Shown piece after piece: positions 22,287 to 27,558 of a stretch of DNA of 58,166 nt. The notes beneath the pieces were generated by a model, which saw nothing but the letters and a program-made list of their open reading frames with translations, had not been told where the DNA came from and ran no database searches. How positions within the stretch are numbered: the first letter of the stretch is position 1; each line of letters opens with the position of its first letter. The stretch is from the NCBI GenBank assembly GCA_937928425.1, contig CALFVL010000007.1, forward strand, positions 1 through 58,166, given 5' to 3'. The DNA comes from an uncultured Verrucomicrobiales bacterium. GTDB taxonomy: Bacteria; Verrucomicrobiota; Verrucomicrobiia; Verrucomicrobiales; Akkermansiaceae. The position numbers were made by a program, and so were the translations under genes.

Positions 22287-23276
22287 ATGAAGCTGAGTTT
22301 TCACGTTCTAGCTGCTTGTGGGACTGCGTTATCTTCTTGCTCGGAGCTCTTAAAGGTGCCGACGATTAAACCTAAGACGGCAAAGAAGGAGCGCTTCACG
22401 GAGGGTGAGAGCGGTGGGGTGGCTGGTAGTCCCTTTGCTAAGGTGAGTAAGCCGAATGAAGACTCGGCGCTGGGTGATGAGGCGCCTGAGCAGGCAGGAT
22501 ATCTTTCCGGGCGAGTGGGTGAAGGGGTGGTGGCAGGTGGATTTCTCTTACCTTCAGATGATAAGATTGTCTGGTCGTCTGGGGAGGATCCTAATGCGGA
22601 CATCCCTTTTGATAAAGTCTTTGAGACTAAGCCGGAGAAGAAGGAGGCTTGGCTCTTGAGTTATCGAGAAGCGAGGCGGGAATCGATGCGGAAGGGTAAG
22701 CCGGTGTTAATGTGGTTCACACGGACGGGGTCTCCAGCGAGTCCGCGCTGTGTGACTTTAAACCGCGAGCTTTTCTCAACGCATAAATTCGGAGACTGGG
22801 CGAAGGAAAATATCATTCGCTTGAAGGTGGATGCCTCCGGTGGGGTCGATAATAAGGTCCGCTTCGAAGGAGAGGAGATCGACCGCAGGAATTACGCTAA
22901 AAAGTTAAAGAAGCAATATCGCGTCTTGGGCTACCCTACGCTCGTTCTCCTGCAGCCAGATGGTGGCGTGTATTTTAGTGAGCGAGGATACTCCCGAGGT
23001 GGGGACTCTGAATTATGGGGAAAGTTGAAGGATGCGGCATTGACGATCGAGCATAACCGGGAGGTCTATGAACGGAAGTTGGCGAGGAAGGGATACCGCG
23101 AATGGACCGGAACTAAGCGGGGTCTGGTTTTTGCTAAGTTAAGTCGCTTTGATGAGAAGAGTGGGGCGGTTTGGCTCACTGAGCCAGATGGCAATGTGGT
23201 GAAGACGAGCACGAAGCTTATCTCTAAGGGAGACCGAGGCTGGATCCTCGCAGAGAAAGAGCGGCGCGGACATTAG
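22287..23276 (+). CDS. Thioredoxin-fold lipoprotein lacking the CXXC pair
   Basis: The N-terminus MKLSFHVLAACGTALSSC has a lipobox ending LSSC, so a lipoprotein is likely. Residues ~30-110 look disordered (Pro/Gly/Glu-rich). From ~125 comes a thioredoxin-like fold: KPVLMWFTRTGSPASPRCVT, WAKENIIRLKVDASG, YRVLGYPTLVLLQPDGGVYF (with the cis-Pro GYPT). The usual CXXC position reads SPASPRC, with a single Cys, so classical disulfide exchange is unlikely. The C-terminus (~275-329, REWTGTKRGLVFAKLSRFD) resembles SHD1-type beta domains of planctomycetes and verrucomicrobia. Function is unknown. The gene stands 55 bases after the LOG gene. Confidence 0.65.
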   Translation: MKLSFHVLAACGTALSSCSELLKVPTIKPKTAKKERFTEGESGGVAGSPFAKVSKPNEDSALGDEAPEQAGYLSGRVGEGVVAGGFLLPSDDKIVWSSGEDPNADIPFDKVFETKPEKKEAWLLSYREARRESMRKGKPVLMWFTRTGSPASPRCVTLNRELFSTHKFGDWAKENIIRLKVDASGGVDNKVRFEGEEIDRRNYAKKLKKQYRVLGYPTLVLLQPDGGVYFSERGYSRGGDSELWGKLKDAALTIEHNREVYERKLARKGYREWTGTKRGLVFAKLSRFDEKSGAVWLTEPDGNVVKTSTKLISKGDRGWILAEKERRGH

Positions 23277-23340
23277 AGTGGACCCCGAGCGTGGGTGCTT
23301 TGAGATTGTGACTTTACGAGCAGTGAGAGAGGCTGCTGGC

Positions 23341-23511
23341 ATGACACTCGCTTTAGCTTCTCTGGGGACCGGTTTAATCGTTGGCTTAATTTTCACCGCA
23401 TTCAAGTTGCCTTTGCCCGCTCCTCCAGTGATCGAAGGGATTTTGGGGATTTTTGGGATTTGGGCTGGGAGTAAAATTTGGCCAATTTTCACGGAATTTA
23501 TAAATCGGTAA
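23341..23511 (+). CDS. XapX (DUF1427) family small membrane protein
   Basis: The 56-residue product MTLALASLGTGLIVGLIFTA... has two hydrophobic segments around the conserved LPLPAPPVIEGILGIFGIW block, the XapX-domain signature. The ATG at 23341 was chosen over the GTG at 23278, since the upstream 21 residues are polar and the family begins near this Met. It is probably an inner-membrane protein of unknown function. A tiny open frame follows 10 bases downstream, then a terminator shared with the convergent amt gene. Confidence 0.7.
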   Translation: MTLALASLGTGLIVGLIFTAFKLPLPAPPVIEGILGIFGIWAGSKIWPIFTEFINR

Positions 23512-23658: not shown

Positions 23659-25155
23659 CTACTCAGCGTAAGCTGGAACTCCGTGTTCCGCAACATCGAG
23701 TCCCTCATACTCCTCTTCCTCACTGACACGGATTCCCATAGTGGCTTTCAGGATTCCAAAGACGATGAAGGTGAATACGAAGGCAAAAGTTCCGATGGCA
23801 AGTGTACCAAGGATCTGAACTCCGAGAGTGGCTTCGCAGTCCGCTTTGGTGAGGAAGCTTAGGCCGACTGCAATGGTTCCCCATATGCCAACGACTCCGT
23901 GGACTGAGATCGCTCCGACAGGATCGTCAATTTTGATTTTATCGAAGAAGAGAACTGAGAAGACAACGAGAGCTCCTCCAATCCCTCCTGCAATGACCGC
24001 GCCGATGAGCGTAAACTGGTCCGCGCCCGCTGTGATGCCTACGAGTCCAGCGAGGAGTCCATTAAGGGCCATAGAAAGATCGGGCTTTTTAAGGACAAGC
24101 CATGAGGTGCACATGGCCACGAGTCCACCTGCCGCAGCTCCGAGTGACGTTGTCACAATAACATAGGAAATCGAACTTGGATCGGCGGAAAGCACGGACC
24201 CTCCGTTAAATCCGAACCATCCGAACCATAGTAGAATCGCCCCGATACTGGCAAGCGGCATACTGTGACCGAGGATGGGTTTCACGCCGTCTTTGGTATA
24301 CTTTCCCTTTCGGGCACCGAGAAGGATGACAGCAGCAAGAGCTGCGAATCCACCGAATCCGTGAACCACAGAAGATCCGGCGAAATCATAGAAACCTTTT
24401 TGATCAAGCCAACCGCCACCCCATTTCCAGGAGCCGGTGATGGGGTAGGCAAACCCAACGAGTAAGACAGCGAAGAGCATGAAGGATCCGAGCTTAACCC
24501 GCTCAGCAACTGCTCCGGAGACAATCGTTGCTGCAGTTGCAGCGAACATCGCTTGGAAGATAAAGTCGGCAAAACCAGTCTGACAGAGTCCTGTGCCACC
24601 GTAAGAGATGTCTGTGCTGCCATAGTCTGCATTAGAAATTTGAGAACCCCATGCGAAGAAACCGTTGAAGTCTCCGGGATACATTCCATTGAAGCCATAG
24701 GCAGCATAAAGAAGGAGGCCTGAGCAAATGATGAAGACGTTTTTAAAGAGGATATTTACGGTGTTTTTCTTCTGGGTGAGTCCTGATTCGAGCGTGGCGA
24801 ATCCGAGGTGCATGATGAACACTAGGAAGGCTGAAAGTAGGATCCAGAGGTTACTGAGGCCAAAGAATGGAGTGGTTTCGTAGCGGTCGTAGTAGCCCTC
24901 CATTGCTGATTTTTGCTCACTAGAGAAGGATGAAAGCTCGCCACCTAGTTCGATGAAGCGAAAGAGCTGTTGTCCAATTAGATCAACCGCGCCTTCATCA
25001 TAGTCTGCGTGCTCCGAGTCGAGCATTTCAGCGCTTACTTGGTATTCTTCGGCGGATGGATCAAAGGTTTCCGCGTTCGCTGCGCCGAATCCAGTGAAGA
25101 GGACTGCTAGGGTCAGCAGCCAAACTGTTGTCATTTGTTGTATTAGCTTTCGCAT
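23659..25155 (-). CDS. amt: Ammonium transporter (Amt) with periplasmic N-terminal extension
   Basis: This inner-membrane ammonium channel has 498 residues. It starts with a signal-like helix (MRKLIQQMTTVWLLTLAVLF...ANA) and then about 75 acidic residues (ETFDPSAEEYQVSAEMLDSE) before the first Amt helix (FGLSNLWILLSAFLVFIMHL). The Amt core follows with GFATLESGLTQKKNTVNIL, the first pore His in GSSVVHGFGGFAALAAVIL and the second in ISVHGVVGIWG. The C-terminus ends VSEEEEYEGLDVAEHGVPAY, the conserved GlnK-interacting tail motif. It is divergent from a second amt and has a sigma-54 promoter 36 bases upstream. No glnK is adjacent. Confidence 0.94.
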   Translation of the reverse strand: MRKLIQQMTTVWLLTLAVLFTGFGAANAETFDPSAEEYQVSAEMLDSEHADYDEGAVDLIGQQLFRFIELGGELSSFSSEQKSAMEGYYDRYETTPFFGLSNLWILLSAFLVFIMHLGFATLESGLTQKKNTVNILFKNVFIICSGLLLYAAYGFNGMYPGDFNGFFAWGSQISNADYGSTDISYGGTGLCQTGFADFIFQAMFAATAATIVSGAVAERVKLGSFMLFAVLLVGFAYPITGSWKWGGGWLDQKGFYDFAGSSVVHGFGGFAALAAVILLGARKGKYTKDGVKPILGHSMPLASIGAILLWFGWFGFNGGSVLSADPSSISYVIVTTSLGAAAGGLVAMCTSWLVLKKPDLSMALNGLLAGLVGITAGADQFTLIGAVIAGGIGGALVVFSVLFFDKIKIDDPVGAISVHGVVGIWGTIAVGLSFLTKADCEATLGVQILGTLAIGTFAFVFTFIVFGILKATMGIRVSEEEEYEGLDVAEHGVPAYAE

Positions 25156-25190
25156 TTTATCGTGGGTTCTTATTGAACAGAATGGCAGTG

Positions 25191-25206
25191 AGCAGTGGTT
25201 GTGCCA
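25191..25206 (-). promoter_or_regulatory. Sigma-54 promoter of the minus-strand amt
   Basis: Read on the minus strand, TGGCACAACCACTGCT matches the -24/-12 consensus (TGGCAC-N5-TTGCW) with the invariant GG-N10-GC. The predicted transcript would start about 25 bases before the ATG. It fits nitrogen-limited, NtrC-type control. Confidence 0.7.
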
Positions 25207-25213
25207 TCGGTAG

Positions 25214-25228
25214 ATGAATGAGATTCAT
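25214..25228. promoter_or_regulatory. Inverted repeat centred between the two amt promoters
   Basis: ATGAAT-GAG-ATTCAT is a perfect 6-bp inverted repeat lying almost exactly midway between the two divergent sigma-54 -24 elements. It may be a regulator site shared by both genes. Classic sigma-54 enhancers lie further upstream, so its role is uncertain. Confidence 0.4.
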
Positions 25229-25231
25229 TAA

Positions 25232-25247
25232 TGGCATGAAATGTGCT
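25232..25247 (+). promoter_or_regulatory. Sigma-54 promoter of the plus-strand amt
   Basis: TGGCATGAAATGTGCT has the invariant GG-N10-GC spacing and near-consensus -24 (TGGCA) and -12 (TGCT) elements. The predicted start lies about 40 bases before the ATG at 25297. Confidence 0.6.
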
Positions 25248-25296
25248 CCATTTTCTTTAAGGTGCTTCCCTTGAGCGGCGCCAATCTTAAGAAGTT

Positions 25297-26613
25297 ATGA
25301 AAAAATACTGTCACACAATGAAATCGCTAGGAGCCTTCCTTGCGGTGTTATTTCTCTCGAGTGGAGTTCTCTTCGCTGCGGAAGAGCTTCCTCCGATCGA
25401 CTCGGGAAACACAGCCTGGATGATCACTGCTACGGTTCTGGTCCTAATGATGACTCTTCCGGGACTGGCTCTTTTTTATGGTGGTCTAGTCCGGGCGAAG
25501 AATGTCCTTTCGGTCTTGATGCACTGCTATGCGATCGCGGCGTTAGCTTCGATCTTATGGGTTGCAGTCCTCTATACGATGTCTTTTGATCATCAGGAAG
25601 GTGGCAAGTGGTTAGGAGGTTTTGGGAAAACCTTTCTGGAGGGGGTGGGGCTAGATAGCCGTCAGGGAGATATTCCTGAAACGGTATTCGTGATGTTCCA
25701 GATGACTTTCGCGATCATTACCCCGGGCTTGATCGTGGGTGCTTTTGTGGAGCGGATGAAATTTGTCGCGGTGATGGTCTTTACGGCCCTGTGGTTAGTT
25801 TTAGTTTATGCTCCTGCTGTTTACTGGGTGTGGGGCGGTGGAATCATGTTCGAGTGGGGAGCGATTGATCTAGCGGGAGGAATCGTGGTTCATGCCACAG
25901 CAGGGGTTTCAGCACTCGTCTTGGCTAAAATGATCGGGCCTCGTAAGGGTTTTCCGAGTCAGTTACAGCCTCCTCATAGCCCAGGGATGGTTATGATTGG
26001 AGCGTCGTTACTCTGGGTTGGCTGGTTCGGCTTCAATGCTGGATCACAGCTTGCCGCAAATGAGGCTGCAGGAATGACGATGCTAGTCACACATATTTCG
26101 GCAGCGACGGCCTCGCTCGTCTGGTGCCTCGTGGAACGGATGCAGACTGGTAAGACTGGAGTGGTGGGCATAGCGACTGGGATGGTGGCAGGTCTGGCTA
26201 CGATTACACCAGCTTCCGGGAATGTAGGCCCTATGGGGGCGCTCATCATCGGGGCTTCGGCAGGGGTGATCTGCTACTTTATGTGTGGAGTCATTCGTAA
26301 TAAGTTGAAGATTGATGATTCACTGGATGTGTTTGCCGTTCACGGTGTGGGCGGAATTCTTGGGACCCTTATGGTGGCTTATCTCGGTCTAGAGAAATTC
26401 GGAGGAATGGGGATCTCGGCAGACAGTCCGATGGAGCAGCTTGTGATCCAGCTCAAGTCGCTTGGAATTACCATCGTGTGGTCAGCTCTCGCTACCGTGA
26501 TTATTGTTCTTATCATTAAGAAGACGGTGGGTCTTAGGGTGAGTGAGGAGGTGGAATCCGAGGGGCTCGATTCCGCAGAGCATGGCGAAACGGCCTACAG
26601 CCTTGATTCCTAG
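25297..26613 (+). CDS. amt: Ammonium transporter (AmtB type)
   Basis: The 438-residue product has a signal-like start (MKKYCHTMKSLGAFLAVLFL...FAA), a short linker and the Amt core: GNTAWMITATVLVLMMTLPG LALFYGGLVR, MTFAIITPGLIVGAFVERMK, the pore His residues in GGIVVHATAGVSALVLA and DVFAVHGVGGILG, and the C-terminal tail RVSEEVESEGLDSAEHGETA that docks PII proteins. It is closer to the canonical AmtB layout than its divergent neighbour. Having two dissimilar Amts under back-to-back sigma-54 promoters suggests different affinities or partners. It ends at a strong terminator. Confidence 0.95.
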   Translation: MKKYCHTMKSLGAFLAVLFLSSGVLFAAEELPPIDSGNTAWMITATVLVLMMTLPGLALFYGGLVRAKNVLSVLMHCYAIAALASILWVAVLYTMSFDHQEGGKWLGGFGKTFLEGVGLDSRQGDIPETVFVMFQMTFAIITPGLIVGAFVERMKFVAVMVFTALWLVLVYAPAVYWVWGGGIMFEWGAIDLAGGIVVHATAGVSALVLAKMIGPRKGFPSQLQPPHSPGMVMIGASLLWVGWFGFNAGSQLAANEAAGMTMLVTHISAATASLVWCLVERMQTGKTGVVGIATGMVAGLATITPASGNVGPMGALIIGASAGVICYFMCGVIRNKLKIDDSLDVFAVHGVGGILGTLMVAYLGLEKFGGMGISADSPMEQLVIQLKSLGITIVWSALATVIIVLIIKKTVGLRVSEEVESEGLDSAEHGETAYSLDS

Positions 26614-26822: not shown

Positions 26823-26838
26823 TGGCACGCGAACTGCT
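26823..26838 (+). promoter_or_regulatory. Sigma-54 promoter of the TorF-like gene
   Basis: TGGCACGCGAACTGCT is a near-perfect -24/-12 element (TGGCACG, N4, CTGCT) with GG-N10-GC. The predicted start falls only about 5 bases before the ATG at 26854, so the message would be nearly leaderless, or the true start codon lies further in. Confidence 0.65.
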
Positions 26839-26853: not shown

Positions 26854-27558
26854 ATGAAAAAGACATTCACAATTCTAGCAAGCGCTTCCAGTCTGCTTCT
26901 CAGTAATGCACAAGCTGAGATTGAGTCAGAATTTCACGTTGGTTATAACAGTAAATATATTTTCCGTGGAGTAGACCTCGGTGATGATGCTTACGAGTAT
27001 GGCCTTGATTTTGCAGGTTCCACGAAGTTTGGACTGGATTGGTCAGCAGGAATTTGGGGAATCTCCCCAGATAACGAGGACGGGAACGTTGATGAGCTTG
27101 ATATCTATGCAGCCGTTTCTAAGGACTTCGGTGGAGTAACAGTTTCTGCCGGTTTTACCGCTTATACTTATGATAGTGGTGAGGATGATGCTGAGGTTTT
27201 CCTCGGTGCTTCAGGAACGATCGCTGATATTGAGGCTGGTTTGACTGTTCTCTTTGGAACTGAAGGTATCCTCACTGATCAGATTCTCTTAGAAGGGAAT
27301 TTAGGTTATTCTTATGAAATCAATGAGACAGTTTCAGCGAATCTTGGTTTGACCTATGGTCTGATCCTTGATGAAGGAGACGGTGGTTATGCTTCAGGTA
27401 GTGGTTTTGCGTATTTCACCGCTAGCTTTGGACTGGATTTCGCTCTGAGTGAGGAGACGACATTTTCCCCTTATGTGTCTTTCGTTGATGGCGCTAGCCG
27501 AGTGGGTGGGGTAGATGCTGAAACAATTGGAGGTGCAACTCTTTCGTTCTCCTTCTAA
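26854..27558 (+). CDS. Outer-membrane beta-barrel protein, TorF (TIGR02001-like) family
   Basis: The 234-residue product has a signal peptide MKKTFTILASASSLLLSNAQA followed by alternating aromatic/polar strands. The opening HVGYNSKYIFRGVDLGDDAY is characteristic of the TorF-like outer-membrane family. Acidic loops (DNEDGNVDELD, DSGEDDAEVF) recur, and it ends GGATLSFSF with a terminal Phe, the outer-membrane assembly signal. It probably forms a small barrel or porin. A sigma-54 promoter and the adjacent amt genes suggest a role in nitrogen-compound uptake across the outer membrane; this is inference. Confidence 0.75.
   Translation: MKKTFTILASASSLLLSNAQAEIESEFHVGYNSKYIFRGVDLGDDAYEYGLDFAGSTKFGLDWSAGIWGISPDNEDGNVDELDIYAAVSKDFGGVTVSAGFTAYTYDSGEDDAEVFLGASGTIADIEAGLTVLFGTEGILTDQILLEGNLGYSYEINETVSANLGLTYGLILDEGDGGYASGSGFAYFTASFGLDFALSEETTFSPYVSFVDGASRVGGVDAETIGGATLSFSF

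Follow-up and report, generated by a model that had tools for sequence, protein, structure and literature searches.

The window analyzed in this study, a stretch of 58,166 nucleotides from a bacterium of the Akkermansiaceae, contains two divergently transcribed ammonium transporter genes, amt A and amt B, separated by an intergenic region of 141 bp (25156-25296). Both products belong to the Amt family according to a profile search (PF00909, E values of 1e-112 and 1e-110). The NCBIfam model nearest to amt A was TIGR03644, a marine subtype, with a score below the cut-off of this model. The following features were annotated in this region and next to it:

23659..25155, minus strand: amt A, ammonium transporter (PF00909; TIGR00836 passed)
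25191..25206, minus strand: predicted sigma-54 -24/-12 element of amt A, TGGCACAACCACTGCT (matrix; conservation in 18/18 genomes)
25214..25228, no strand assigned: perfect palindrome ATGAATGAGATTCAT (ATGAAT-GAG-ATTCAT), proposed LysR-type operator (conservation, family-wide recurrence, LysR leaders)
25232..25247, plus strand: predicted sigma-54 -24/-12 element of amt B, TGGCATGAAATGTGCT (matrix; conservation in 18/18 genomes)
25236..25250, no strand assigned: second, degenerate operator-like site ATGAAATGTGCTCCA (ATGAA half-site at +22 in 18/18 genomes)
25297..26613, plus strand: amt B, AmtB-like ammonium transporter (PF00909; TIGR00836 passed)
26823..26838, plus strand: third predicted sigma-54 element, TGGCACGCGAACTGCT, upstream of a porin-like gene (19.8 bits; conserved in L074, L082, L084 and L086)
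26854..27558, plus strand: Gcw_chp (TorF-like) outer-membrane protein gene (PF09694)

Both amt elements fit the pattern TGGCAC-N5-TTGCT with GG-N10-GC, and their distances to the amt start codons are 35 and 49 nt. The two elements are 25 bp apart, and 27 bp separate their -24 GG pairs. The back-to-back GG-N10-GC sites with a perfect repeat midway, as described in the initial annotation, were confirmed from the sequence. Transcription from sigma-54 promoters is expected to start about 11-12 bp past the element; the predicted starts are at approximately 25180 for amt A and 25258 for amt B. Relative to these starts the palindrome is centred at -41 for amt A and -37 for amt B, and the second operator-like site at -63 and -15, respectively. 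A GTTC-N5-GAAC repeat (25165-25178) in the short predicted amt A leader occurs at the same place in many genomes of the genus. It was dropped as a candidate because it is lost in some of them.

Sigma-54 promoters and probable nitrogen control

A single -24/-12 match was not accepted as evidence, because matches to the sigma-54 consensus with one mismatch are common genome-wide (114 versus 90 in the reversed control) and a lone match thus proves little. Therefore, a 16-bp matrix was trained on other genes, using 79 distinct sites that precede PII, rpoN and LysR genes in related genomes, with amt sites left out. In the scan of both strands of the 58-kb window, the amt A element ranked first (25191, minus strand, 21.6 bits), the element upstream of the porin gene second (26823, plus strand, 19.8 bits), and the amt B element third (25232, plus strand, 19.1 bits). 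The fourth match reached 11.7 bits (23337, plus strand) and all remaining ones at most 8.1 bits, whereas mononucleotide shuffles yielded 0-0.1 matches per 58 kb at the scores of the top three sites. The weaker fourth site, TGGCATGACACTCGCT (23337-23352), is located between the convergent 3'-ends of a gene at 22287-23276 and amt A, with no obvious gene downstream.

Comparison with related genomes, like the matrix scan a check proposed at the outset, was in line with this result. In all 18 genomes of the genus that possess the divergent amt pair, the source genome included, both sigma-54 elements are kept. The palindrome follows ATGAR-N5-YTCAT, with ATGA-N7-TCAT exact in 17 of the 18 genomes. 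Its gap to the amt B element is always 3 bp and its gap to the amt A element 7 bp (6 bp in two genomes). The amt A element is also kept in genomes having only amt A (L071-L073). Hence, both amt elements are supported as predicted sigma-54 promoters by every computational test, and the case is based on conservation and matrix rather than on a lone consensus match.

The initial annotation made its promoter assignment dependent on rpoN, and this gene is present in the genome together with three full-length true enhancer-binding proteins. One of the latter is encoded on C77 after a gene for a soluble PAS kinase. In most genomes of the genus rpoN is preceded by its own sigma-54 site. The only PII gene found (C145) carries a perfect, genus-conserved sigma-54 site, TGGCACGGGGCTTGCT, 50 bp before its ATG, and for this reason nitrogen control through sigma-54 is likely. 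The Gcw_chp/TorF-like gene, the predicted leader of which is only about 5 nt long, probably belongs to the same nitrogen cluster as the amt pair.

The palindrome in the genus and the family

With two strong sigma-54 matches at hand, the region might be regarded as an ordinary promoter pair in which the palindrome plays no separate role. The 3-4 fold increase of amtB in N2-fixing cells of a distant relative from the same phylum (PMC3404531) would agree with such a simple arrangement. We consider it highly improbable, since the palindrome is as strictly conserved as the promoter elements and the motif recurs family-wide. Furthermore, in G009 (L073), where amt B is missing from this locus along with its promoter, the palindrome and the amt A promoter have been kept.

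The double-promoter composite with its fixed spacing of 41 bp was searched in 387 genomes of the order without a convincing match outside the genus. Thirteen of the 16 matches were found in genus genomes; the other three look like chance and were rejected. In contrast, the palindrome in combination with a single sigma-54 element was detected far more widely. Among 260 genomes of the family, about 85 matches in 51 genomes were obtained for gaps of 1-30 bp and 27 matches in 20 genomes for gaps of 31-60 bp, and the reversed-pattern control had none in either range. Operators at other promoters would be missed by this search, which required a sigma-54 site. Thus, the divergent amt arrangement seems to be genus-specific and the putative operator family-wide.

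The composite was found before glnA, amt, nirA, nirB, nrtA and rpoN. The downstream genes are overwhelmingly related to nitrogen and encode glutamine synthetase, both types of Amt, nitrite reductases and a nitrate-binding-type protein. Further ones encode a NarK-like MFS transporter, a UrtB-like permease, porins including TorF-like ones, LysR regulators and RpoN; some of these gene names were assigned by reading the sequence. Over 41 gene-by-lineage cases, grouped by hand, the gap between palindrome and sigma-54 element has a period of 10.5-11 bp that exceeds all 5000 uniform simulations. Judging from this period, the palindrome-binding protein seems to favour one side of the helix with respect to the polymerase.

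A perfect operator copy is located 6-8 bp before the sigma-54 element of rpoN itself in L136, L142, L143 and L145, and in these few genus genomes sigma-54 may be under the same regulator. In L246, L247, L248 and L249 the palindrome lies 48-49 bp before a sigma-54-like element of small lysine/alanine-rich histone H1-like genes. These genes, seen in four or more genomes of the genus, are a possible unexpected target.

The association with sigma-54 sites at nitrogen genes and the helical phasing of the gaps are also what a binding site for an enhancer-binding protein would display, and a reading of the palindrome as an NtrC-like enhancer was favoured first. The genome has three candidate proteins, and an odd-length dyad with a 3-bp centre, as found here, is also used by Fis-type domains. 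Such an enhancer would have to act unusually from -37 to -89, with the LysR gene described below merely as one of its targets, and its position at amt B, -37, would bring it up against the polymerase. Moreover, the sigma-54 sites of the PII promoters and of most rpoN promoters are conserved and lack the palindrome, and in LysR leaders the palindrome follows the predicted start and persists even in cases without a recognised sigma-54 site. The enhancer reading was therefore lowered, and we regard it as unlikely that the palindrome belongs to an enhancer-binding protein.

A LysR-type regulator and its putative operator

Twenty-four of 27 genus genomes yielded a gene for a LysR-type regulator. 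In the source genome it is located on C33, with one gene between it and an nrtA-like gene; the coding region of the LysR protein is L283:2277-3236 on the minus strand. The survey of LysR leaders covered 80 loci from named Verrucomicrobiota genomes, 78 of which had readable upstream regions. Just upstream of the LysR gene the palindrome is present in 68 of the 78 genomes (3.4% of control windows), often perfect and starting 17-22 bp before the start codon, and a sigma-54 element in 58 of the 78 (1% of control windows). Deeper lineages (L347-L369) retain the palindrome, mostly with no sigma-54 element recognised. At the LysR gene of the source genome (L273) the sigma-54 site is present and the copy of the palindrome is poor.

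Autoregulation through a T-N11-A dyad is the signature of LysR regulators (PMC4834489), and for CbbR the site pattern TNA-N7-TNA has been described (PMC2942843). The palindrome fits both patterns, with A-TGA-N7-TCA-T in 17 of 18 genomes, and CbbR was the nearest relative with a solved structure. A weaker second site two to three helical turns away, a further property of LysR operators, is represented by the ATGAA half-site. It is located exactly 22 bp from the palindrome in 18/18 genomes, and at other promoters in the family a second motif is likewise most often 22 bp away.

Because of its position in LysR promoters and leaders and beside nitrogen-related sigma-54 promoters throughout the family, we consider it quite probable that the palindrome is the operator of the LysR protein. 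The preference over an enhancer-binding protein derives in part from the PII promoters and most rpoN promoters, which must likewise depend on such a protein and have no palindrome. Most likely it is the autoregulatory operator of this regulator and not a sigma-54 enhancer. The LysR gene was not found in G014 (85% complete) and G026 (81% complete), both of which keep the palindrome. In G023, loss of the LysR gene coincides with a decayed palindrome, which is suggestive but weak because this genome is 92% complete.

These results bear on two earlier proposals. The assignment as RpoN-type nitrogen-limitation promoters holds with respect to the sigma-54 sites, rpoN and the PII site. The compact centre was additionally taken as a squeezed enhancer region; this was not supported, and the palindrome is best explained as a LysR operator given its occurrence in the LysR leader or promoter of 68 of 78 genomes and next to nitrogen-related sigma-54 promoters of the family. 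The enhancer-binding protein must either have its site beyond the 25 bp that separate the amt elements or work independently of a specific one.

Proposed circuit and related regulatory systems

In our model, two back-to-back sigma-54 promoters would share one LysR operator in a compact divergent region. The LysR gene, located elsewhere (C33, near nrtA), is usually preceded by a sigma-54 element and the same operator and would thus be autoregulated. Under nitrogen limitation an enhancer-binding protein would open both amt promoters. This would be one of the three encoded in the genome, most likely the NtrC-like protein on C77 with the soluble PAS kinase. As a tetramer, the LysR protein would presumably occupy the palindrome together with the weaker site 22 bp from it.

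Activation by LysR regulators usually goes with sites placed in the -41/-63 manner. At amt A the sites at -41 and -63 would correspond to this layout, whereas at amt B the sites at -37 and -15, over the promoter, would be repressing. The second half-site, which overlaps the plus-strand promoter, would also explain why the amt B element has TGGCATGAA instead of TGGCACG, and unequal control is predicted from this overlap. Classical sigma-54 polymerase footprints reach about -34; thus, the 25 bp in the centre would have to be shared by two polymerases and a LysR dimer, or contested among them. Sigma-54 and the enhancer-binding protein would deliver the starvation signal to both genes, and the LysR protein would set the ratio of the two transporters. 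Joint induction, as initially proposed, is consistent with the shared sigma-54 signal but would be only half of what the model predicts, because the two promoters differ in where the operator pair lies relative to them. We infer the binding of the LysR protein to the palindrome, the direction of control, the ligand and the identity of the acting enhancer-binding protein.

The same operator may serve a pure repressor or anti-activator that blocks both sigma-54 promoters under nitrogen sufficiency or in the absence of an effector, either by covering the polymerase site or by quenching the enhancer loop. Quenching that depends on the helix phase has been reported as possible for proteins whose binding site lies between a sigma-54 promoter and its enhancer (PMC4740811). 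At the amt pair the footprints of both promoters contain or abut the operator, and at the LysR gene it is found over the promoter or in the leader. However, many operators are placed clear of the promoter, at -50 to -82, and the 22-bp pairs at nirB (about -50/-72) and nrtA (about -40/-62) have the activating layout. In addition, a LysR gene with a sigma-54 promoter should be made when its target genes are needed. Pure repression is thus a minority possibility, although somewhat less remote than an NtrC-like enhancer. The combination of sigma-54 promoters and shared LysR operator appears probable to us; this judgement extends to the promoters and the operator, and it overlaps with that on pure repression since both include the LysR operator.

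The circuit resembles that of Nac in enteric bacteria, an autoregulated LysR regulator transcribed by sigma-54/NtrC. Here too, the LysR gene (58 of 78 with a sigma-54 element) would be autoregulated and would extend nitrogen control. Nac recognizes ATA-N9-TAT and mostly serves sigma-70 promoters, whereas our site is ATGA-N7-TCAT and the operators are found at sigma-54 promoters. The LysR protein passed no NCBIfam model and no Nac model was among the best 25, so that it was not placed in the Nac family. Each part of the circuit is of a known kind; what sets it apart from Nac are the protein family, the site and the promoters targeted. The glnK-amtB operons of Proteobacteria are controlled by sigma-54/NtrC and likewise have an ammonium transporter under a sigma-54 promoter. 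In contrast, the window has two divergent amt genes, no PII gene linked to amt and no recognised NtrC-type enhancer.

NtcB, the LysR protein of cyanobacterial nitrate assimilation, is also tied to nitrate and nitrite genes, and its structure (8h3v, E 7.5e-21) was among the nearest solved structures to our LysR protein. NtcB works together with NtcA (reference list of PMC4834489) and not with sigma-54, while in our case amt, glnA and rpoN are marked as well. ThnR exemplifies one LysR regulator acting on two closely spaced divergent promoters via T-N11-A sites with helix-face dependence (PMC4834489); its promoters have -10 boxes, whereas both amt promoters are of the sigma-54 type. In Methylacidiphilum, a LysR gene annotated as cbbR adjoins nitrate/nitrite assimilation genes by locus number (Mfum_140011 to Mfum_140017; PMC3404531) and may be the same nitrogen regulator misnamed.

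Our literature searches, with most subscription papers outside reach, revealed no report of this operator or circuit in Verrucomicrobiota. The control of sigma-54 promoters is attributed almost exclusively to enhancer-binding proteins, and we know of no LysR protein that activates the sigma-54 polymerase. We tentatively propose a family-wide circuit in Verrucomicrobiota in which a sigma-54-transcribed, self-limiting LysR protein would act directly on sigma-54 promoters from phased positions between -37 and about -82, and in which one operator at the amt pair would activate one transporter and restrain the other. If true, direct co-activation of the sigma-54 polymerase by a LysR protein would add a novel way of controlling sigma-54 transcription. 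These results show that selection acts on the palindrome of the window, and across the family the putative operator of a second regulator is tied to sigma-54 promoters that serve a large part of the genes for nitrogen assimilation. Since both operator motif and regulator gene are named, the idea is directly testable, and the motif may serve as a usable regulon motif for these common, little-studied aquatic Verrucomicrobiota.
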